Shown piece by piece: positions 12,060-37,026 of a stretch of 41,173 bases of DNA (the first letter of the stretch is position 1; each line of letters begins with the position of its first letter). Under the pieces are notes generated by a model. That model worked only from the letters and a program-made list of their open reading frames with translations, searched no databases and had not been told where the DNA came from. Source of the stretch: a virus. The translations under genes and the position numbers were made by a program. Location: the IMG/VR virus record IMGVR_UViG_3300020190_000129, positions 1 to 41,173 of that record. One strand, written 5' to 3'.

Positions 12060-13676
12060 ATGACTAAAGAAGTACAATTTAGAAGGGGTACTACAACCCA
12101 GCACAGCACCTTCACAGGTGCTCTTGCTGAGGTAACCGTTGATACTGATAAAAAGGTTGTCGTAGTACACGACGGTGTGACTGCTGGTGGGCAGGAGATG
12201 GTAGGTAGGACCGCTACACAAACACTCACAAATAAAACGCTCACCTCCCCGACTATTTCTGGTGGAACGATTAATAACGCTTCCGTTGGTGCTACTACCA
12301 GAGGTACTGGTGCATTTACAGCACTGGATGCAAATGGAAACGTCATTCTCGGTAGCGATACTGCTGATACTGTTACTATTAACGGTACTGTCAACAGTAC
12401 CCTCATTCTTGGAGATGGAGTTCAGATTCATGGTCCATCTACTCTAGTTATTGACCCAGCTGTTGTTGGAGATGATACTGGCACGGTTCAAATCAAAGGT
12501 AACCTAGAAGTTCTTGGAACTACTACTACTATTGATTCAACCACAGTCACATTCAACGATCCTTTGATTGTTTTGGGTGATGGATTGACAACTTCTGCAG
12601 GAGTAGATACTGGTGGTTTTACTCTAGGTACTACTGGCATCAGTATCAAATACAATAATACTGATACGAGATTTGACTGCACCGAAAGTATTGCTCTTGC
12701 ATCTGGCAAGTCATTAATCATCGGATCAACTACTGTCCTCACTGGTACTACAGTGTTTGGAAAAACTATTGGCGGAACAAACGCAGGTGATATTGTTTCT
12801 ATTGATGGAACACAAACACTAACAAATAAAACTTTAACAGCACCTAGGTTTGTCAATGATGGTTTTATTGCTGATAGTAATGGCAATGAGTTGATTGAGT
12901 TTGGCGTTGTTGCTGACGCGGTAAACGAAGTAAAGATCACCAACGCTGCAACTGGAGTTACTGGTCCTCTTATTCAATCAATCGGTGAAACAAACGTAGA
13001 TCTTCGTATCGGTGCTGCTGGCACTGGTGATATTGTTTTATCAAATGCTTTAAAGCCCCTCGCTGGTACAACAACAAAAGCACCTATTCATTTTACTGCA
13101 GGTTCAGAACTTTCTACTACAACAGCTGGTGCTTTTGAATATAATGGTACTCAGTTTTTCTTAACAAATGCTGATACCACAAACGGTAAAAAATATGTAG
13201 AAGCACTAGCACGTTACCAAGTAACAGCAAACCAAAGTTCTATTACTGGTACTTCTATTACTGATGTTTATGCTGCAAACAGTGCCTATTCTACTCTCGC
13301 TGGTGCTTATTATGAGATTGAATATCACATGTACTGGACTCGCGCAACAACTGCTGGTACTCACACATACACACTAGTAAGTACACAGAACTGGCAGTAT
13401 GCTGCATTGAGTGGCAATGGTTTACTAACTTCAGGAACAGCTGGTTTACACGTTAATACTGGTGCAGCTGGATCTCTTGCTCTTCCAGCATCTGCATCAA
13501 TGGCAATTGGCAACCATTACCATGTAGTTAGAGCATACTTCCAAGCAAACGCATCAACAGCAGGAAACATTCGTCTTCGTGTAACATCCTCCGCTAACGG
13601 TATTACACTTCAAAGAGGAAGTTTCTACGTTGTTAGAAGACTACCAGCGGGAAGCATCGGTACATTCGTTGCTTGA
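12060..13676 (+). CDS. Tail fibre protein with Mtd_N-like N-terminus and conserved tip domain
   Basis: The 538-residue protein is modular. Residues 1-45 match the 62-residue protein at 5190 (RRGTT..H..FTGA.AEVT.DTDKK). LTNKTL shaft motifs occur at about 55-61 and 254-259. Residues 145-175 (GNLEVLGTTTTIDS) resemble residues 1398-1450 of the 1773-residue protein encoded at 15145. From about 333 onward, GTTT.AP..FT.G..L.TT..G.FEYN begins a C-terminal domain that matches the C-terminus of the same 15145 protein. The layout of N-terminal attachment, fibrous shaft and C-terminal head suggests a trimeric tail fibre with a receptor-binding tip. Its own late promoter lies upstream and a strong terminator lies 22 bases downstream, so it is probably a single-gene late transcript. 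Fibre identity is supported by several motifs; the receptor is unknown. Confidence 0.85.
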   Translation: MTKEVQFRRGTTTQHSTFTGALAEVTVDTDKKVVVVHDGVTAGGQEMVGRTATQTLTNKTLTSPTISGGTINNASVGATTRGTGAFTALDANGNVILGSDTADTVTINGTVNSTLILGDGVQIHGPSTLVIDPAVVGDDTGTVQIKGNLEVLGTTTTIDSTTVTFNDPLIVLGDGLTTSAGVDTGGFTLGTTGISIKYNNTDTRFDCTESIALASGKSLIIGSTTVLTGTTVFGKTIGGTNAGDIVSIDGTQTLTNKTLTAPRFVNDGFIADSNGNELIEFGVVADAVNEVKITNAATGVTGPLIQSIGETNVDLRIGAAGTGDIVLSNALKPLAGTTTKAPIHFTAGSELSTTTAGAFEYNGTQFFLTNADTTNGKKYVEALARYQVTANQSSITGTSITDVYAANSAYSTLAGAYYEIEYHMYWTRATTAGTHTYTLVSTQNWQYAALSGNGLLTSGTAGLHVNTGAAGSLALPASASMAIGNHYHVVRAYFQANASTAGNIRLRVTSSANGITLQRGSFYVVRRLPAGSIGTFVA

Positions 13677-13697
13677 TATTTACTTACATTTTCCGAG

Positions 13698-13723
13698 TCC
13701 CTCCTTATGGGGGGATTTTTTTT
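13698..13723 (+). terminator. Rho-independent terminator after the 12060 fibre gene
   Basis: The stem TCCCTCC / GGGGGGA (7 pairs with one G-T) has a TTAT loop and is followed by eight T residues (13716-13723). The last T is also the first base of the next late promoter. Confidence 0.85.
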
Positions 13724-13730
13724 ATAAATA
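13723..13730 (+). promoter_or_regulatory. Late promoter TATAAATA
   Basis: This exact T4-type late octamer abuts the T-run of the preceding terminator. It would start the unit of the 13766, 14470 and 15145 genes. Confidence 0.7.
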
Positions 13731-15144: not shown

Positions 15145-18100
15145 ATGGCTGAATTTAGACTAGGTAGATTAAAGTTCAACTGGACTGGAGCATGGCAACC
15201 AAACCGTGCTTATGTACTGGACGATATCATCTCCTTCAAAGGCAACACCTATGTCTGTGTTGTCAATCACACTTCCGCTGCTAGCCAGGAAGCATGGGAA
15301 GATACAGATCTTAACGCAAGTCCAGCGGCAAAATGGGAACTCTATGTTCCTGGTGTCAGAAACGCTGGTGCGTGGACTCCAAATACCTTCTACGCAAGTC
15401 AGGATCTTGTGAGGTATGGTGGCAACATTTATATCTGTAAAGATAATCATACTTCCCCTTCTAACGAGAATCTTTTTTACCTAACCAACTTTGCTGGTAA
15501 CTGGGATCTGTTTCTTTATGGAAATGAAAATAAAGGAACTTGGCAAGCAACTACTTGGTATAAAGTCAACGATTTAGTAAAATACGGAAATAATATTTAT
15601 CTCTGTAATATTGGTCACACTTCGACAACAGCATTTGATATTACTAAGTTTAGTATATTTTTAGAAGCAGTTAAGTTTGAAGATAGTTGGAGCAATGACG
15701 TAGAATATCAACCAGGAGATATTGTTCTCTTTGGTGGTTATTCATACACCGCAAAAACTATTAATATAAACAAACAACCAAACAACTATGTAAACACTGA
15801 TTGGGAAGTAATCAGTGTCGGTTTTGATGCCAAGGGTATCTACAATTCAGCAACCATTTATGTTCCTGGAGATGTTGTAAGATATGGTGGTAATACTTTT
15901 GTAAAACTATTAACTAGTGTTGCTGGTGTTGCTCCCTCAGAATCTGGAGATGGTGCTCTCAAGTGGAGTTTGATTTCCGAAGGTCTTTCATATAAAAATG
16001 AGTGGGATAATCTGACCACTTATCAAAAGAATGATGTTGTAACATCAGCTTCGAGTACTTATGTTAGTATTGCATACAATAACACTGGAAGAGACCCTGG
16101 AACTAATGACGCAGATGGGTTCTGGGCAGTTGTTGCACGCGGAGATGAAGAGAGTACTATTACTGTTAAAGGTGATTTACTTTATAGAGCAACTGCTACC
16201 AATGCAAGATTACCAATCGGCAATCCTGGTCAAATCTTGTATGCCACAGAAAATGGCATTCCTGGATGGGGAAATGCAAAGACTAGAAAAGTATACTTCG
16301 TAACTCTAGATGGGGAAGATGATTTTTCTGAGGGTTATGGTGGTTCTATCGGCAGATCGTTTAGAACTGTAAAATATGCTACACAGATTGCCGCACAAGA
16401 AGGATGCGATGAGCAGAATCCTGCAACCATTTATGTAAAAGCTGGTGTTTATGACGAGCAGTGTCCCATCACTGTGCCACCTTATTGCTCTGTCGTTGGT
16501 GATGACAGTAGAGGAACTATTATTGAGCCTGGTCCTGGGGTCAGTCATATTCAAAAACTAATCATTGCTTCTACTTGTTTATTAAAACCAGGAGATACTT
16601 TAACGGTAAATACTCTTGCTGGCGCAACAAGAACTGCTAGAGTTCTTCACTTTGCTGATACAGACGCAACTCCTGTTGGTTCTGGGGAAGCAAATAGAAA
16701 GAAAATGGTTTATGTTGAAAGAATCGCAGGTGGTCCTATCATTGACACTGACACTTTCCTAAATGGAACTAACTTAGGTACTGCTCCTCAAGTAGATATA
16801 GTTTCGGTAGAAAATCTAGATAACACAAAAGCAACATTATTCTTCCTTTCGGAAGGTGTAATGCTAAAAGATTTAGTATTTAATAACCCAGATTTAGATG
16901 CAGGTTTTATCAAACCAGATATCACTGGATTAACGATCGAAGAACAGATTACAGATCAACTTGCAGATATTACAAAATCCCAAGTTGGATTTGTGTTCTT
17001 CAGAATCAATCCATTCCTCGTTTCACAAACAATCATTAAGAGTCCTTATATCTATAGTTGTGCATCTTATTGTCACAAAGGTATAGGTGCTATTGTTGAT
17101 GGTTCGGTTAACGAAGGAAAAGATCACCCTTCACACTTTGCTTCAGGTCACCAAAGTTTACTATTTGGTAACGTAACTCAATTCCCAGAAGACGGTGTTG
17201 CTATTTGGTGTAAAGATAACGGAAACTCTGAGATTGTTTCTTGCTTCACTTATTATTCTCATATTGGTTACGCTTGCTCTGGTGGCGCTCGTATGCGTTC
17301 ACTCGGAGGAAACAACTCATGGGGTAACTTCGGATGTTCCGCTAGAGGATTTGACCCAACCGAAATTCCTTTAGAAGCAACTATTCGTGGTACTGAGTTA
17401 AACTTCTACAATGCAGCAACAACTGCTGCAGAAACAGCAACTGTTAATGGTAACTTAGTATTAGGGACCATTACTCAGTCAGGAAAAGTGAATGGAGATT
17501 TCCAAGTTGGTTCTATTATTTCCAACGAAGGAGTTGCAAATGATACTGGTATTACTGACGTTGTTGGTAATGGAACAACTGCTACGGTTTCTTTTAATAC
17601 TAAACCATTCAATCCTTTCGTGATTGGCAAAAAGATTACTATCAGTGGTGTATCAAACAATGCTTTCAACGGAACTTTCACTATTACTGGTGTAGTAGGA
17701 ACTCAGGGTGTTATTACTGGTGTTCAGTTTGCTTCGACCACAACTGCTACTTCTTTAGGTTCAGGTGGTACTGTAAGACCTGCATTAGGAAAAGCAAGAG
17801 TTCTTTATGTTCTTGCTGGTAATGATTATACTAAAGTTCTCATTGAACCTATTACTGGATTTATTGGCGATGGACAAAGATGTGCTCAGATTACTGGAGC
17901 AGATCCAAACAATCCACCTCCAGTAAGTATTCCAGCAGCATCAACTGTTATTGCAAATAGTCAGTATCCTGCTGCTGACAATAGTACTAGTGCTGCAAAC
18001 CGAGCAACAAGAGGAGCTAAGTTTGCTGTTATTAATCTACCAGAAAAACCAAAGATTACTAGTGCTGTAACTTTTGCCAACAGTGGTGATAATATCAACT

Positions 18101-20466
18101 ATGTTGTTCAAGAGATTGAAAATTATAGCGATGGTCCATCTGCATCATTCAAAACTCTTGACGTAACTAGAACAGCAAGTTTACAAAACAGTGTTGTTAC
18201 TATTCCAATCGCTAAAACTGGTACTTTCCCAAATGGCGTTAATGTAGCAGCAGAGACTCATGTTGGTGGAACTGATATTTCTCTTTACAGTTTATTAACT
18301 GGCGCCAACAATCAAGTAGTTATTGATAATCCTGGAGATTTGTTAACTTCAACTTCAGCAACCAACATCAATATTCTAAATCCAGAAAGAGTAACTAATG
18401 CTTTACAAACTTACAATACTGCATCAACGACTCTATATCTATTAGTTGGAAATGAGTTGATGCTACCATCGACGGTTACCGATGATGCATTTAATAGCTA
18501 TGTAACTGTTACTAGAGGTCAAGAAGGTACGATTGCACAAGAGCACGCAGACCAAGATTCCCCCAACTTCCCACAAAATGCTGTTGTTAGATTTGTAGTT
18601 AAGTACACTCCAGTTACTACACTTCGTCAAGATGCAAATAATCTATCTAATGTTTTAACCTACAGTACATTAACTGGTAATGGAGGTTTACCTGTATTCT
18701 CATTTACAGATCAAGAAGGTTCACCAACAAAAACTATTGTTGAGGGAGATTTTATTAAGATTGATAACGAGTTTTTCCGAGTTGATTTGAAGACTTCGGC
18801 AAATCCAGGAACTGCTATTCTCACATTTTTCCCAGTAAAACTAATACCCGAAGCAAGTGGAAATGAGATACGGATTCGTTATCGCTACAGTCAGATTCGC
18901 CTAACTGGTCATGACATGCTTGAGATTGGAACTGGTGGTATTGCTACCACTAACTTCCCAGATGAGCCACTTGTCCGACCAGATGAAACTAGGGAAACTA
19001 ACTTTATTGCTCCTGCTAGAATTTATTATGTAACTACCAATCAAGATGGAAACTTTAAGGTCGGTCAGTTCTTTAGGATTGACCAAGCAACTGGTAAGTC
19101 AACTATTGATGCTTCAACCTTTGACCTAACTGGTTTATCAAACTTACAGTTTGCTTTACCAGATGGAACTAAAGTTGGTGTAGAAATTAATAAGTTTGAT
19201 GCAGATGGTACTTTAGGTGGTAGTGAAACTAGTGATTCATTTGTACCTACCCAAAAGGCAGTTAAAACCTATGTAGATACTAACTTTATTAACTCAAATG
19301 ATGATGTTACGGTTGGTTCCGAGCTATTAAGCAGGAACTTAACTGTAAACGGTAATACTAATATTACTGGCGATACAATCATTGGTGGAAGTTTACAGGT
19401 TAGTGGTACTACTACCAGTGTTAATACTACAGAACTTGTGGTAGAAGATGTTAATATTACTCTTGCTGCTGGTAATGTTACGGGAGACTCTGCTATTCAG
19501 GGTGCTGGTTTAACTATCAAAGGAACTATTGATAAAACTATTACATATGATGGTCTTGGTGATCTTGGAAGATTTGCAGTTAGCGAAAATGTTCTTCTTG
19601 CTCCTGGCAAATATATTGCTTCAAAACCAGCATTGGCAGATGGTACTGGAGTTTTAGCAACGGAAGAAATTATGATCGATACTAATGTCAGTGGATCCAC
19701 TGGTATTGGTCTTGTATTCCCAACTATTGCTCAGTTAGATATTGGTAATTCTTCAACTGCTATTACTCTTGGTGGTACATCTGGAACTACTTCAGTAAGA
19801 AATAGTTTGGTTCTTCCATCTGGAACCACTACACTAGCTCCAATGAGGTTTACTCCAACAGGTGCTGCTCTACTCACAACCGCACTGCAAGGTGGTTTTG
19901 AATATAACCAGATTGCATTCTATGCAACCCCAACTACTGAAAGTGGAAGAGGAATCATTCTCGCTCCACATATCCTGAGAGCTGCTGCAGATTTTGCACA
20001 AACAGGCACAACTAACACTGTTAGAAACGTATTCAGTCCAACTACGGCGGATGCCGCTCCCCTCAGAGCAAATACATTATACAGATTTAGAGGTGTTTAT
20101 TATCTATCTAAATCAACCACAACATCTGGTACTTGGAACTTACTGTTTACTTTCACAAACACGCCATCTAACTTCCGTTACACTGCTATTGGAGCAAACT
20201 CAGCCTCATCAACGGCCGCCTTGATTATGAACACAACTGCTCAAACATCAACGGCAGTTACTCAAAATGTAACTAATAATCAGGATTGCGCCATACGGTT
20301 TGAAGGTTACTTTGTATCAAACGCAACAACTGGTGGAACATTAACTCCTCAGTTTAACAAGAGCGATGCGGCCAACGCAACTGTAACTACTCGTATTAAC
20401 TCATACTTTGAGATTCAAGCTATGGGTGCTGCCAACCCATCGATTATCGCGGGTAACTGGAGTTGA
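15145..20466 (+). CDS. 1773-residue virion protein: six carbohydrate-binding-like repeats, beta-helix segment, fibre tip
   Basis: Residues about 13-330 form six imperfect repeats of about 50 residues with the pattern W....Y...D.V.Y.G..Y......T, ending in a W and a G. This resembles CBM5/12-type (chitin-binding-like) modules. From about 381 the sequence FRTVKYAT, ATIYVKAGVYDEQCPI and VVGDDSRGT is typical of the start of a pectin-lyase-like beta-helix and runs to roughly 725. Mixed beta-repeat sequence follows. At about 1373-1450 come VKTYVDTNF and a segment like residues 145-175 of the 12060 fibre. From about 1553 the GTTTLAP..FT...FEYN domain matches the tip of that fibre. It is probably a host-surface-binding, possibly polysaccharide-recognising, baseplate or fibre component. 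No clear depolymerase active site is identifiable by eye. Three late-promoter-like sites lie just after its stop. Confidence 0.85.
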   Translation: MAEFRLGRLKFNWTGAWQPNRAYVLDDIISFKGNTYVCVVNHTSAASQEAWEDTDLNASPAAKWELYVPGVRNAGAWTPNTFYASQDLVRYGGNIYICKDNHTSPSNENLFYLTNFAGNWDLFLYGNENKGTWQATTWYKVNDLVKYGNNIYLCNIGHTSTTAFDITKFSIFLEAVKFEDSWSNDVEYQPGDIVLFGGYSYTAKTININKQPNNYVNTDWEVISVGFDAKGIYNSATIYVPGDVVRYGGNTFVKLLTSVAGVAPSESGDGALKWSLISEGLSYKNEWDNLTTYQKNDVVTSASSTYVSIAYNNTGRDPGTNDADGFWAVVARGDEESTITVKGDLLYRATATNARLPIGNPGQILYATENGIPGWGNAKTRKVYFVTLDGEDDFSEGYGGSIGRSFRTVKYATQIAAQEGCDEQNPATIYVKAGVYDEQCPITVPPYCSVVGDDSRGTIIEPGPGVSHIQKLIIASTCLLKPGDTLTVNTLAGATRTARVLHFADTDATPVGSGEANRKKMVYVERIAGGPIIDTDTFLNGTNLGTAPQVDIVSVENLDNTKATLFFLSEGVMLKDLVFNNPDLDAGFIKPDITGLTIEEQITDQLADITKSQVGFVFFRINPFLVSQTIIKSPYIYSCASYCHKGIGAIVDGSVNEGKDHPSHFASGHQSLLFGNVTQFPEDGVAIWCKDNGNSEIVSCFTYYSHIGYACSGGARMRSLGGNNSWGNFGCSARGFDPTEIPLEATIRGTELNFYNAATTAAETATVNGNLVLGTITQSGKVNGDFQVGSIISNEGVANDTGITDVVGNGTTATVSFNTKPFNPFVIGKKITISGVSNNAFNGTFTITGVVGTQGVITGVQFASTTTATSLGSGGTVRPALGKARVLYVLAGNDYTKVLIEPITGFIGDGQRCAQITGADPNNPPPVSIPAASTVIANSQYPAADNSTSAANRATRGAKFAVINLPEKPKITSAVTFANSGDNINYVVQEIENYSDGPSASFKTLDVTRTASLQNSVVTIPIAKTGTFPNGVNVAAETHVGGTDISLYSLLTGANNQVVIDNPGDLLTSTSATNINILNPERVTNALQTYNTASTTLYLLVGNELMLPSTVTDDAFNSYVTVTRGQEGTIAQEHADQDSPNFPQNAVVRFVVKYTPVTTLRQDANNLSNVLTYSTLTGNGGLPVFSFTDQEGSPTKTIVEGDFIKIDNEFFRVDLKTSANPGTAILTFFPVKLIPEASGNEIRIRYRYSQIRLTGHDMLEIGTGGIATTNFPDEPLVRPDETRETNFIAPARIYYVTTNQDGNFKVGQFFRIDQATGKSTIDASTFDLTGLSNLQFALPDGTKVGVEINKFDADGTLGGSETSDSFVPTQKAVKTYVDTNFINSNDDVTVGSELLSRNLTVNGNTNITGDTIIGGSLQVSGTTTSVNTTELVVEDVNITLAAGNVTGDSAIQGAGLTIKGTIDKTITYDGLGDLGRFAVSENVLLAPGKYIASKPALADGTGVLATEEIMIDTNVSGSTGIGLVFPTIAQLDIGNSSTAITLGGTSGTTSVRNSLVLPSGTTTLAPMRFTPTGAALLTTALQGGFEYNQIAFYATPTTESGRGIILAPHILRAAADFAQTGTTNTVRNVFSPTTADAAPLRANTLYRFRGVYYLSKSTTTSGTWNLLFTFTNTPSNFRYTAIGANSASSTAALIMNTTAQTSTAVTQNVTNNQDCAIRFEGYFVSNATTGGTLTPQFNKSDAANATVTTRINSYFEIQAMGAANPSIIAGNWS

Positions 20467-20476
20467 TAAATAAATA
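20465..20476 (+). promoter_or_regulatory. Two overlapping late-promoter-like octamers (GATAAATA, AATAAATA)
   Basis: GATAAATA (20465-20472, overlapping the preceding stop codon) and AATAAATA (20469-20476) lie 44-55 bases ahead of gp13. Transcripts from these would include the complete hairpin at 20488-20515. Confidence 0.45.
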
Positions 20477-20484
20477 ACATGATT

Positions 20485-20492
20485 TATAAATA
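20485..20492 (+). promoter_or_regulatory. Late promoter TATAAATA overlapping the gp13 leader hairpin
   Basis: This is an exact late consensus. Its last five bases form the start of the left arm of the hairpin at 20488-20515. T4 late transcripts begin about 6 bases after the octamer, here near 20498, so they would lose most of the left arm. Confidence 0.65.
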
Positions 20493-20519
20493 CCTCTAGG
20501 AAACTAGAGGTATTTTTTT
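20488..20519 (+). terminator. Perfect 12-bp hairpin plus T7 run, containing the gp13 ribosome-binding site
   Basis: The left arm is 20488-20499, the GAAA loop 20500-20503 and the right arm 20504-20515, all 12 pairs perfect. A continuous T-run spans 20513-20519. It has the form of an intrinsic terminator for the 15145 gene. The right arm also contains GAGG (20507-20510), the only SD-like sequence for the gp13 ATG at 20520, nine bases away. Confidence 0.8.
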
Positions 20520-21344
20520 ATGGCTAAACCAGCCAGCAGAGAAGAACTAAAACAATATTGCCTCAGAAAACTAGGTGCTCCAGTTTTAGAAATAAATGTT
20601 GATGATGATCAACTAGAAGATTTGATTGATGATGCTCTACAATATTTTAATGAGCGTCATTTTGATGGCATGGAAAAACTATATTTGAAGCACAAGTTTA
20701 CAGAGGCAGAACTAGAAAGATTTAGAGAAGAAAACACCATTCATACATCAGATGACGGAAGTGAGTGGGAAGAAAGAAACAACTATATTGAACTTCCAGA
20801 TCATATCGTTGGTATCGAAAGAGTTTTTTCTTTGTCTATGACTGCTCTACGTTCTGACTTTTTTGGATTTGGAAACCAGTATTTCCTGATGGATATGTTT
20901 TCTTTAAACGCTGGTTACTCCTTAGGTAATGTTGATTTAGTTAACTACTATATGTTTAAACAATATTTTGAAACACTCGATATGGTTTTGAACAGTGGTG
21001 CTATTATTCAATGCAGATTTACAAAAAGAAACGGTAAACTTTTTATTGACTACAATCCTAAAGTATTGCAACAAGATAACTACTTTATTGTAGAATGTCA
21101 TCGTCTTCTCAATCCAGCAGATGCACCAAAAGTTTGGAATGATTGGTTTTTAAAAAGATATGTAACTGCATTGTTTAAAAAACAATGGGGTCAAAACTTA
21201 ATCAAGTTCAATGGCGTTCAACTTCCTGGCGGTGTTTCTATTAATGGAAGAGAACTTTTCGAAGATGCACTAAGAGAGATTGATGAGCTAGAAAGCAGAA
21301 TGATTTCTGATTATGAACTTCCACCACTAGACGCAATAGGATAA
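20520..21344 (+). CDS. 13: Neck protein gp13 (head completion)
   Basis: The 274-residue protein has the typical cyanophage gp13 start: MAKPASREELK.YCLRKLGAPVLEINVDDDQ.EDL.DDALQYF..RHFDG (residues 1-50). T4 gp13 is 309 residues; it forms the neck with gp14 and closes the DNA-filled head before tail joining. The start codon directly follows the T-run of a hairpin, and the SD-like GAGG is within the hairpin's right arm, an unusual arrangement that suggests control of translation. gp14 follows after one base, so gp13-14-15-16 form a tightly packed unit. The identification rests on the N-terminal sequence and on gene order. Confidence 0.92.
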   Translation: MAKPASREELKQYCLRKLGAPVLEINVDDDQLEDLIDDALQYFNERHFDGMEKLYLKHKFTEAELERFREENTIHTSDDGSEWEERNNYIELPDHIVGIERVFSLSMTALRSDFFGFGNQYFLMDMFSLNAGYSLGNVDLVNYYMFKQYFETLDMVLNSGAIIQCRFTKRNGKLFIDYNPKVLQQDNYFIVECHRLLNPADAPKVWNDWFLKRYVTALFKKQWGQNLIKFNGVQLPGGVSINGRELFEDALREIDELESRMISDYELPPLDAIG

Positions 21345-28223: not shown

Positions 28224-28817
28224 ATGGCAATCACAAGTAGTATTCAAACTTTTTTAAATAATGTACAAAATGGTGTAAGACCAAATCTTTATGAAGTCGA
28301 TTTCAGTTTCCCTGGGGAAACATCTTTAGCCGATGACGCCACCGATCAGTTAAGTGGACTGCTCTGCAAAGCAGCAGCATTACCTGCTTCTAACTTAGGC
28401 GTTATTGAAGTTCCTTTTCGTGGCAGAACTGTGAAAATTGCGGGGGACCGCACCTTTGATACATGGACTGCAACATTCATCAACGATAGAAACTTCGCTA
28501 TTCGCGGAGCTATGGAACAATGGATGGAAGCTATTAACGCACATGAAAAGAATAGTGCTACTCTTGTTCTCCCAGATACAACAAGTGGATATCTAGCAAA
28601 CATTCTAGTTAAGCAACTAGAAAGAGATGACAGTGCAGGTGGTGCTGTAAAAACTGTTTATAAACTATGGGGATGTTTCCCAACTAATATTTCTCAAATC
28701 GATCTTGCTTATGATAGCAATGATCAGATTGAAGATTTTACAGTTGAGTTTCAGATTCAATACTGGACTCGCGGCGATGCTGATCCATATACAAATATTA
28801 TCCAAGGACAAGCCTGA
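28224..28817 (+). CDS. 19: Tail tube protein gp19
   Basis: The 197-residue protein (T4: 163) starts with helical ITSSIQTFLNNVQNGVRPNLYEV, then LPASNLGVIEVPFRGRTVKIAGDRTFDTW (about residues 55-82), typical of the T4-like tube family, and ends with a beta segment VEFQIQYW. It polymerises inside the gp18 sheath into the DNA conduit. The gap to gp18 is 34 bases with a GAGG SD and no late octamer, so it probably reads from the gp18 promoter. The protein encoded at 34057 has a similar layout. Confidence 0.94.
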   Translation: MAITSSIQTFLNNVQNGVRPNLYEVDFSFPGETSLADDATDQLSGLLCKAAALPASNLGVIEVPFRGRTVKIAGDRTFDTWTATFINDRNFAIRGAMEQWMEAINAHEKNSATLVLPDTTSGYLANILVKQLERDDSAGGAVKTVYKLWGCFPTNISQIDLAYDSNDQIEDFTVEFQIQYWTRGDADPYTNIIQGQA

Positions 28818-28847: not shown

Positions 28848-30464
28848 ATGAGTCAACTATTTGGATTCTCTATTAAACAAGAGGGGGGATTGAAAGGTCA
28901 ATCCCCCATTCCACCAAATGCCGACGATGGAGTAACCGCTGTAGCAGGCGGTTATTTTGGTTCGTATGTAGACATTGAAGGAGTAGCGCGTAATGAGTTT
29001 GAGCTCATTAGGCGCTATCGTGATATGGCACTTCACCCAGAAGTAGATTCTGCTATTGACGAAATCGTAAACGAAACTATTGTATCTGATTTAGATGATA
29101 GTCCCGTTCAGATAGAACTATCTAATCTAGAAGTAAGCACAAGTATTAAAAATAAAATCAGAGAAGAGTTTGATTATATTAAAAGACTTCTCAAATTTGA
29201 TTCTCGTTCTCACGAGATTTTTAGAAACTGGTATATTGATGGTAGACTTTATTATCACAAAGTAGTAGATTTAAACAATCCCAAATCAGGTATTCTCGAA
29301 CTTCGTTACATTGACCCAATGAAAATCAAGAAGGTCAAAGTTCAGAATAAAGATCAAAAAGAAATAATGAGTCAAGAGACTCGTGGCACAGCACTACAAT
29401 ATAACTTCGGAGAGTTTATTGAATATTACTTATACAATCCAAAAGGTTATGTAACTAGTGCAAACTTTGATGGCAATGCTATGGCAAATGGCATGAAGAT
29501 TGCTGCCGATGCTATTACATATGTTCCTTCAGGAATCCAAGATCTCAACAAAAAAATGACGTTGAGTTTCATGCACAAAGCAATCAAATCACTTAACCAA
29601 CTTCGCATGATTGAAGATGCGTTGGTTATCTATCGTTTGTCTCGTGCCCCAGAAAGAAGAATTTTCTACATTGACGTAGGTAATCTTCCCAAAGTAAAAG
29701 CGGAGCAATATCTACGCGAAACAATGGCACGTTACAGAAACAAACTTGTTTATGATGCAGCCACAGGAGAAATCCGCGATGACAAAAAGCATATGAGTAT
29801 GCTTGAGGATTTTTGGCTCCCTCGTCGTGAAGGTGGCAGAGGAACTGAAATCACAACTCTGCCTGGTGGTCAAAATTTGGGAGAGTTAAAGGATGTCGAA
29901 TACTTTAAAAAGAAACTATACAACTCACTTAACTTACCTCCATCACGTTTAGATGATGCAAACCAAGGATTCTCTCTTGGTCGTTCATCTGAAATCCTTA
30001 GAGATGAACTCAAGTTTTCCAAGTGGATTGGAAGATTAAGAAAGAGATTCAGTACTTTATTCCACGACACACTAAGAACTCAACTTATTCTAAAAGGAAT
30101 CATCACTCCCGAAGATTGGGAAGAGATGCAAGAGCATATTCAATATGACTATCAGTTTGATAATCATTTTGAAGAACTAAAGCAGGCAGAACTGATGGGT
30201 AATCGTCTGCAGGTTGCAACAGCTCTCGATCCTTTCTTAGGTAAATATTATTCTATTGAATATGTTCGCCGTCAAGTTCTCATGCAAAATGACGCAGAGT
30301 ATGACGAAATAACTAAGCAGATGGAAGCAGAGATTGCGGAAGGTAAAATACCAGATCCAATCCACACAAACCTAATGAACGCAGCAACTCTGGAGATGGG
30401 AGCTGTACCACCACCAATGCCAGAACCAGCAGCAACGCCAAAACCTAAAACATCTCAATCATAA
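28848..30464 (+). CDS. 20: Portal vertex protein gp20
   Basis: The 538-residue protein (T4: 524) shows typical gp20 sequence: YRDMALHPEVDSAIDEIVNE (about residues 55-74), LRYIDPMKIKKVKVQ, APERRIFYIDVGNLPK.KAEQYLR, a region of W-rich clip sequence EDFWLPRREGGRGTEI (about 322-337), and LPPSRLDD followed by RSSEIL. It forms the dodecameric ring at the vertex that starts head assembly, admits DNA pumped by gp17 and joins the neck. The C-terminal tail is proline-rich (VPPPMPEPAATPKPK) and probably flexible. It has its own late promoter. Confidence 0.97.
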   Translation: MSQLFGFSIKQEGGLKGQSPIPPNADDGVTAVAGGYFGSYVDIEGVARNEFELIRRYRDMALHPEVDSAIDEIVNETIVSDLDDSPVQIELSNLEVSTSIKNKIREEFDYIKRLLKFDSRSHEIFRNWYIDGRLYYHKVVDLNNPKSGILELRYIDPMKIKKVKVQNKDQKEIMSQETRGTALQYNFGEFIEYYLYNPKGYVTSANFDGNAMANGMKIAADAITYVPSGIQDLNKKMTLSFMHKAIKSLNQLRMIEDALVIYRLSRAPERRIFYIDVGNLPKVKAEQYLRETMARYRNKLVYDAATGEIRDDKKHMSMLEDFWLPRREGGRGTEITTLPGGQNLGELKDVEYFKKKLYNSLNLPPSRLDDANQGFSLGRSSEILRDELKFSKWIGRLRKRFSTLFHDTLRTQLILKGIITPEDWEEMQEHIQYDYQFDNHFEELKQAELMGNRLQVATALDPFLGKYYSIEYVRRQVLMQNDAEYDEITKQMEAEIAEGKIPDPIHTNLMNAATLEMGAVPPPMPEPAATPKPKTSQS

Positions 30465-33981: not shown

Positions 33982-33998
33982 TTTACAGGTCAAGGTAG

Positions 33999-34024
33999 AG
34001 ACCCCCAAAAGGGGGTCTTTTTTT
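33999..34024 (+). terminator. Rho-independent terminator after gp23
   Basis: The perfect 8-bp stem AGACCCCC / GGGGGTCT with an AAAA loop is followed by seven T residues. It ends the head gene block. Confidence 0.93.
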
Positions 34025-34029
34025 ATGCA

Positions 34030-34037
34030 AATAAATA
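34030..34037 (+). promoter_or_regulatory. Late promoter AATAAATA after the gp23 terminator
   Basis: The octamer is five bases after the terminator T-run and 19 bases before the ATG at 34057. Confidence 0.6.
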
Positions 34038-34056: not shown

Positions 34057-34569
34057 ATGCCTGCTAAGTGGTTTGATGAACAACCAAAAAATAGAAACTT
34101 TCTTGCCCCAGCTGGATTTAAGTTGGAGTTGGAGTTATTTCCTGGCGTAGATTTTTTCTGTCAACGTTCTGGTGTTCCAGATATTTCTGTAGGAACTACT
34201 GAAGTTCCAACTCCATTCAGAAGTCTACCGATCCCTTCTGCAGGTGGAGTTCGTTATGGTGATTTTAGAGTTCGATTTATTATTGATGAAGATTTAAAAA
34301 ACTATTTAACTATATTTGATTGGATACAAAAAAATAATCTAGCAGAAACATATGATGACAGTGGTATACAATTTTGTAATGCAGAGCTGCATATTTTAAA
34401 TAGTAACTTTAGAACAAATAGAATAGTAAACTTTGAAAAACTTTTCCCAGTTGATTTATCTGGTGTTGAGTTTGACGTAGCAGACCAAGACGTTGATTAC
34501 ATTACAGCTGATGTAACATTTAAGTTTTTTAAATATTATTTTACAGATAAAAATCACAAGGAGTTATGA
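34057..34569 (+). CDS. Tail-tube-fold protein, candidate tail completion protein gp3
   Basis: The 170-residue protein shares the layout of gp19: GFKLELELFPGVDFFCQRSGVPDIS (about 20-44), VPTPFRSLPIP.GGVRYGDF.VRFIIDEDL.NYL..FDWI (50-91) and a C-terminal beta strand ADVTFKFFKYYF. This suggests the tail-tube fold. Its length is near T4 gp3 (176), and a gp3 gene lies after gp23 in related cyanophages as I remember them, so gp3 (tail tube tip / sheath stabiliser) is the best guess. Another tube-fold baseplate protein such as a gp54-type initiator is possible but would normally be larger. It has its own late promoter. Confidence 0.72.
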   Translation: MPAKWFDEQPKNRNFLAPAGFKLELELFPGVDFFCQRSGVPDISVGTTEVPTPFRSLPIPSAGGVRYGDFRVRFIIDEDLKNYLTIFDWIQKNNLAETYDDSGIQFCNAELHILNSNFRTNRIVNFEKLFPVDLSGVEFDVADQDVDYITADVTFKFFKYYFTDKNHKEL

Positions 34570-36948: not shown

Positions 36949-36978
36949 AAGCGCAACACTGCTATTATATACGATTTT

Positions 36979-36999
36979 AAGGGTTGTGTCAAGCCCCTT
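36979..36999 (+). terminator. Weak hairpin overlapping the gp55 promoter
   Basis: AAGGGTTG pairs with CAAGCCCCTT around a TGT loop, with small bulges, and is followed by few T residues. It may act as a weak terminator for the uvsW/Sm-like transcript or as a regulator site. Its 3' end touches the -35 of the next promoter. Confidence 0.35.
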
Positions 37000-37026
37000 T
37001 ACAATAACCGTTAGGTGTGTTACAAT
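36998..37026 (+). promoter_or_regulatory. Sigma70-like promoter for gp55 (TTTACA-N17-TACAAT)
   Basis: The -35 TTTACA (36998-37003) and -10 TACAAT (37021-37026) have the optimal spacing of 17 bases. The likely start is near 37033. No late octamer is near. Host-type transcription of the late sigma gene is expected, since it must be made before late genes. Confidence 0.7.

Follow-up and report, generated by a model that had tools for sequence, protein, structure and literature searches.

The window, which is the whole stretch of DNA analysed (41,173 nucleotides, IMG/VR virus record IMGVR_UViG_3300020190_000129, from a virus of marine cyanobacteria), carries on its + strand a tail-fibre-like gene of 1773 aa (15145-20466; phrog_9851, E 6e-246), followed by the gene for gp13, a head-tail adaptor or neck protein (20520-21344, +; phrog_211, E 1.1e-42, with relatives found by tblastn). 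With its ATG at 20520, gp13 is the first gene of the downstream unit and is followed by gp14, gp15, the small and large terminase genes, sheath, tube, portal, protease, scaffold and major capsid. The upstream gene is expected to be late because it is tail-fibre-like. Three CBM_5_12 carbohydrate-binding stretches were found in the fibre-like protein, and an Mtd_N domain at the start of the ORF at 12060-13676. Two tail-tube-like genes (28224-28817 and 34057-34569, both phrog_45) flank the head genes.

The superposition of a late promoter, a hairpin and the SD of gp13 that a first-pass annotation had described was confirmed in the sequence, base for base for the octamer, the hairpin, the run of seven T, the GAGG and the ATG. 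The octamer TATAAATA (20485-20492, +) begins 35 nt 5′ of the gp13 ATG and is a T4-type late promoter motif (NATAAATA) in front of a late gene. The hairpin (20488-20515, +) has 12 base pairs, four of which are GC pairs, with AAATACCTCTAG (20488-20499) and CTAGAGGTATTT (20504-20515) as its left and right arms around a GAAA loop (20500-20503). It is continued directly by a U-tract of seven (20513-20519, +), the first three T of which lie inside the right arm. The right arm also contains an SD-like GAGGU (20507-20511, +; GAGG at 20507-20510), 8 nt 5′ of the ATG. The best SD 8-mer was UAGAGGUA, with -7.1 kcal/mol against the sequence that we take to be the anti-SD. There are 21 nt between the stop codon of the fibre gene (20464-20466) and the hairpin, so that a ribosome terminating there probably would not melt it. 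According to PMC1524935, the T4 late octamer occupies positions -13 to -6; by this rule the +1 of the element is predicted at 20498, within the left arm, where the annotation had expected the start. Two further octamers, GATAAATA (20465-20472) and AATAAATA (20469-20476), overlap each other and together span 20465-20476 (+), and their predicted starts (around 20478 and 20482) are both 5′ of the entire hairpin.

The isolated hairpin folded at -16.1 kcal/mol (z -6.8), lower than all 200 shuffles, and the fold of the 121-nt gp13 leader had a z of -4.1 (1 of 200 shuffles as low). With this stable stem-loop and U7 directly after it, the element is an intrinsic-terminator-type signal, with release predicted just before the gp13 ATG. 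The pattern CCTCTAGN{2,8}CTAGAGG occurred once in the window and ATAAATACCN{8,24}GGTATTTTTT once in the window record, that is, as one fused element. ATAAATA was present in 20 copies in the window against 11.7 expected, and octamers on their own are weak evidence. No Rfam family matched at its gathering score in the window; three sub-threshold matches were within 20300-20700.

Three + strand terminators in the window scored 20 or more, and all of them were paired with a late octamer (the terminator of the 20485 element is booked under an identical copy in locus L120, since terminators were de-duplicated by sequence). A weaker + strand terminator, with a score of 12, was at 29199. The other two strong ones are plain punctuation. 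At 13695-13730 (+), a terminator hairpin (13695-13718) and a T-run are followed by TATAAATA (13723-13730), 5 nt from the stem; at 33997-34037 (+), a hairpin (33997-34020) after the major capsid gene is followed by an octamer (34030-34037), 10 nt from the stem. Three strong terminators with octamers suggest that the late region is split into a tail and fibre unit and a unit from gp13 to the major capsid gene (gp23).

The placing of octamers at terminators was non-random in related genomes. At 159 terminators in seven cyanophage records, ATAAATA (347 copies overall) was nested in 9 cases, downstream in 14 and upstream in 2, and the 20 other letter permutations together (8209 copies) were nested in 14, downstream in 39 and upstream in 22. 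Fisher's p for ATAAATA nesting was 6e-8 in the first four records. This control is conservative because one-base shifts of the octamer are among the permutations. CTAAATA was nested at 4 of the 159 terminators. Nested and downstream cases numbered, respectively, 3 and 2 in S-SCSM2R, 2 and 2 in S-PM2, 1 and 1 in Syn1, 2 and 5 in contig G001, 1 and 1 in S-CAM3, 0 and 2 in S-SM2, and 0 and 1 in S-SSM7, the last two being the ones of the seven without a nested case. A late octamer nested in a terminator or at most 30 nt downstream of one was thus present in all seven records scanned. A nested octamer puts a promoter within the stem or loop of the terminator. For T4, in which the same detector recognised 16 terminators, the counts were 0 nested and 2 downstream.

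For a protein-selected sample of relatives, we took the best 80 loci of 599 stretches in each of four protein searches, which gave 154 distinct gp13 leaders. A gp13 match was present in 304 loci (pattern-selected loci included), and 14 of them had been dropped before leaders were counted, 2 because the match started after residue 20 and 12 because an ATG or 60 nt of upstream sequence was lacking; in L362 the gp13 start was not found by the start motif. Among these 154 leaders (best 80 per search), most (89) had neither octamer nor terminator, 26 had an octamer only, 22 had the octamer fused to the foot of a hairpin with a U-tract, 9 had the octamer or CTAAATA in the loop of a U-tract terminator, 5 were fused without a U-tract and 3 had a terminator and then an octamer. 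Four leaders (L126, L139, L348 and L176) were assigned by hand, after which the same sample comprised 23 fused leaders with a U-tract, 8 without, and 22 with an octamer only.

A U-tract terminator at most 95 nt from gp13 was found in 34 of the 154 leaders (best 80 per search), and all 34 had an octamer-like motif: ATAAATA at the foot in 22, a motif in the loop in 9 (2 with ATAAATA, 7 with CTAAATA only) and a downstream motif in 3. The classifier found no such terminator without an octamer-like motif in this sample. In phage Aeh1, according to PMC1524935, the putative late consensus is CTAAATA. In the 15 leaders from isolates or single cells, one was fused (S-SCSM2R), three were of the in-loop form (S-PM2, Syn1 and Sf-CH3), S-BM3 had a terminator and then an octamer, one had an octamer only and nine had none of these. 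The annotation had considered the arrangement unusual; that it is a one-off is not supported, since many phages have it before gp13 and nested or downstream octamers occur in all seven cyanophage records. The annotation had named a lack of conservation of the hairpin in relatives as a refutation of its reading; the hairpin was found to be conserved before gp13.

Some in-loop cases can be located individually: an octamer or CTAAATA lies in the loop before gp13 in L361 (1090-1170, S-PM2), L355 and L359. A blastn search with the S-PM2 in-loop copy returned 23 cyanophage records, duplicates included and inspected in part. The S-PM2 element also resembled 109 records of enterobacterial phages. Three folded enterobacterial loci (L386-L388) were plain terminators without an octamer, and the likeness was therefore taken as chance. 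In the leaders of L121 and L328, AGGAAA persists near the predicted +1 though the terminator lies separately upstream.

Loci with at least 1.5 kb of upstream sequence numbered 136 of the 154, the other 18 being shorter. An octamer-bearing terminator was found within the last 1.5-2.5 kb in 39 of the 136: 21 fused, 8 in-loop, 3 with a terminator and then an octamer, and 7 about 240 nt upstream of gp13. For the other 97 loci, which include all 7 U-less ones counted, these last 1.5-2.5 kb contained no terminator with an octamer nested in it or downstream of it; six loci of the classes with an octamer only or with neither signal had a terminator without such an octamer upstream. Seven loci with no such signal beside gp13 had a nested terminator and octamer 227-241 nt upstream, before a gene of about 72 aa. 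Ahead of such a gene, the octamer core starts 8 nt before the terminator stem in L154, L197, L198, L265, L277, L299, L308 and L349. By the T4 rule, predicted starts near gp13 terminators fell in the left arm in 14 cases, the right arm in 4, upstream in 5 and downstream in 5; elsewhere in the gp13 loci they fell in the left arm in 8 (all before the gene of about 72 aa), upstream in 8 and downstream in 3. When nesting was judged by overlap with an arm, it was seen in 0 of 103 other terminators; judged by predicted start, eight octamers were nested, before one gene of about 72 aa. Because of the de-duplication, some terminators of protein-selected loci are counted under pattern-selected loci and are absent from these counts.

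The annotation had proposed to look for covarying stem pairs. In 25 distinct elements, 93.6% of cells were paired, 5 of the 12 pairs had changes on both sides, and none of 500 shuffles reached the covariation score; cells changed on both sides numbered 15 against 2.2 in shuffles. When the register was slid, pairing fell to 32-60%, and every slid control was worse than the true register. Eleven of the 25 rows came from the pattern scan only, and that pattern fixes the octamer and the outer pairs, not the inner ones. When only the 14 protein-selected rows were kept, of which 7 are U-less and L176 was aligned without its gap, 86.9% of cells were paired. Three pairs had changes on both sides, a number that 62 of 500 shuffles matched or exceeded, and the covariation score was reached by 17 of 500. 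Covariation was thus found in the larger set and is only suggestive in the protein-selected elements.

On the gp13 tree of 168 rows (one of 169 proteins, shorter than 200 aa, was omitted), the U-tract form requires 8 changes, which suggests that it was gained, lost or exchanged repeatedly. An identical 35-nt element stands before gp13 of L124 and L150, the proteins of which are 47.8% identical. Related phages are not independent events.

Scanning viral contigs with the octamer form of the pattern gave at least 119 loci. Among the matches listed, 71 of 120 places were before gp13 (70 by the motif and one more by reading). Among the same matches 50 of 120 places were scored as other, and 40 of these precede an ORF of at least 60 aa with a fold of -6 or lower. 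The ORFs of at least 60 aa scored as other formed 17 groups among the matches listed, one of which is the gp13 missed by the motif and another a distant gp13 relative (phrog_211, E 1e-23). In a control with one base changed outside the stem (TTAAATACC, TTAAATA), the same viral collection gave 17 loci, none of them before gp13; 5 of the 17 precede an ORF of at least 60 aa with a fold of -6 or lower. The combination of octamer and hairpin is not chance.

This control bears on the explanation that terminator and late promoter overlap through genome compaction only, because ATAAATACC is nearly complementary to GGTATTTTTT, with the overlap having no effect of its own. A T-run and the A-tract of the octamer pair naturally, and a promoter just 3′ of the terminator serves equally well in the window, at 13.7 and 34.0 kb, and at two T4 terminators. 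However, the TTAAATA control has the same stem and never occurred at gp13, the complementarity of A-tract and T-tract leaves the in-loop form unexplained, and an identical 35-nt element precedes gp13 proteins as different as those of L124 and L150. We therefore consider compaction alone unlikely.

A slightly wider pattern, applied to seven larger records, had one match each in S-SCSM2R (244 kb) and contig G001 (171 kb), both preceding gp13, and none in the remaining five. A blastn search of phage records with the 51-nt element found one isolate, Synechococcus phage S-SCSM2R, and a weak match in a Pelagibacter phage. A second octamer core within 60 nt, as in the window, is a minority feature (9 of 69 fused leaders). 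A nested terminator and late promoter was also seen before a RusA-like resolvase gene in L430 and in loci such as L008 and L027, the RusA likeness coming from a protein search made on L008 only.

Predicted folds agreed with the annotation that read-through RNA would hide the SD and RNA from 20498 would free it. In the window, the predicted cost of opening the SD was 14.0 kcal/mol for read-through RNA and 2.3 kcal/mol for RNA from 20498. The SD was almost never unpaired in predicted folds of RNA from 20400, 20478 or 20482, so RNAs from the two upstream octamers would hide it too, as had been claimed. The late RNA was not fully open in its predicted fold: GGU of the SD and UG of the AUG were paired in a weaker downstream structure. 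In 61 leaders with a U-tract, the median opening costs were 13.8 and 2.7 kcal/mol, and the cost was at least 4 kcal/mol higher in the read-through RNA in 61 of 61. In eight leaders without a U-tract, the medians were 4.2 and 1.95 kcal/mol, with a difference of at least 4 kcal/mol in 2 of the 8.

The precedent named by the annotation (T4 genes e, soc and 49) is in print, with I-TevI as a further case (PMC3014915 and PMC2988022). As here, the late promoter overlaps the left arm of a hairpin that hides the SD, long RNA hides the SD, and late RNA lacks the arm. The pattern of e, soc and I-TevI, with the SD hidden in long RNA and free in late RNA, is seen in the predicted folds at gp13. The element might then serve mainly in translational control of this type, the hairpin hiding the gp13 SD, the nested start freeing it and the U-tract being incidental. 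The GAGGU in the right arm, the opening costs in the window and in all 61 U-tract leaders, and the likeness to T4 speak for it. Eight U-less leaders keep the octamer and the hairpin, one of which (L132) has a compensatory C-G replacing U-A. In four of the eight, however, 27 to 69 of 300 shuffles folded equally well, and on this ground a role of the hairpin alone in U-less leaders was rejected; such leaders may have arisen by decay or may represent a translational variant.

Other observations argue against mainly translational control. Most foot-fused leaders have the SD in the arm, but the in-loop form mostly does not: in the 12 in-loop leaders counted with isolates, the best SD-like stretch was mostly outside the arm or poorly spaced, with L335, L340 and L341 as exceptions (their right arm contains GAAGGGAU, at 12 nt from the ATG). 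The GG of the ATTC-ATG subclade is 13 nt from the ATG, and the lock drops to 4.2 against 1.95 kcal/mol where the U-tract is missing. In the T4 cases the silencing acts on early or middle RNA; the gene before gp13 should itself be late, and an early RNA that would need silencing is not evident here. The T4 hairpins also differ in that no U-tract terminator is described for them in the cited passages of PMC3014915 and PMC2988022. Mainly translational control thus seems rather improbable to us, though less so than compaction.

The U-tract also bears on a third explanation, in which the hairpin does not terminate transcription but is cut by a nuclease or stabilises the 3′ end of the fibre mRNA. 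Stable hairpins often protect 3′ ends. The equivalent fibre/neck junction of T4, the wac/13 boundary, has a strong hairpin as well (L385, 6594-6624; GGGGCC-GCAA-GGCCCC), but neither a late octamer nor a long U-tract lies in the interval from wac to 13. Against RNA processing or 3′-end protection, 23 of the 31 protein-selected leaders fused at the foot have a U-tract (four leaders being assigned by hand), and loss of the U-tract mostly goes with a weaker hairpin. We regard this explanation as very unlikely.

The element at 20485-20520 is probably a compact boundary between transcription units, which would terminate the fibre RNA and restart the gp13-to-gp23 RNA inside the same hairpin. Polymerase arriving from the fibre gene would make the full hairpin and the U-tract and be released immediately 5′ of the gp13 ATG. 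A new RNA would start around 20498, inside the hairpin, from the late promoter, the octamer of which reaches into the foot of the left arm. The new RNA would lack ten of the twelve left-arm bases and express gp13 to gp23; without most of the left arm it should neither terminate nor hide its own SD. Read-through RNA that escapes termination would carry gp13 with a buried SD, as a second lock. We infer the start site, the termination, the polymerase used and the effect on translation from the sequence. The upstream octamers should give RNAs of about 35-40 nt ending at the terminator, and the model does not need them. Further points against this reading are that 89 of the 154 leaders have neither signal, that S-SM2 and S-SSM7 lack a nested case, that only four of the twelve stem pairs are GC, that eight leaders have lost the U-tract and that the covariation is only suggestive in the protein-selected rows.

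The foot, loop and downstream forms share the property that only an arriving polymerase makes the whole terminator, which favours termination and restart as the selected function. The SD lock looks secondary, a by-product or a second safeguard in the foot form, because the arm of S-PM2-type elements mostly contains no SD and leaders without the U-tract have only a weak lock. The SD-hiding logic of the annotation thus stands as a prediction in the U-tract leaders, and the emphasis moves to ending and restarting transcription. More tentatively, cyanophages may mark the boundaries of late units with self-immune punctuation, the promoter lying in the stem, loop or tail of the terminator, to which the SD is added at gp13. 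If this is true, only incoming RNA is terminated, and at gp13 35 bases serve as stop, start and translation gate.

The element is real and conserved; its parts are known ones, put together in an arrangement that we did not find described. The stem, 4-nt loop and immediately following U-tract are those of T4-like intrinsic terminators in PMC2988022. The octamer and its position before late genes are like those of the T4-type late promoters (NATAAATA) of cyanophages in the cited passages of PMC2984593, which report gp55, gp33 and gp45 for cyanomyoviruses and do not mention an overlap with terminators. Among titles and openings of abstracts, no late promoter nested in a terminator was found; a mapped late start near gp13 may already be in print, in the transcriptome study of Syn9.

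The element yields a rule, at the level of sequence, that indicates where late operons in marine T4-like phages may stop and start; ordinary scans for promoters and terminators handle the combined signal as two unrelated ones. It extends a translational device of T4 to transcriptional punctuation, and it would make testable both the escape of a promoter inside a terminator from its own stop and the balance of fibre transcripts with head-neck-capsid transcripts.

Matches to sigma-70 type promoters in three stretches numbered 48 against 47.7 in shuffles, 28 against 42.1 and 39 against 27.5, with an excess in the third only, and were set aside; on the + strand there was none between 19151 and 21838. 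One match of 12/12 with a 17-nt spacer (36964-36992, -) lies back to back with a match of 10/12 (36998-37026, +), and the pair (36964-37026) is perhaps an early divergent promoter.
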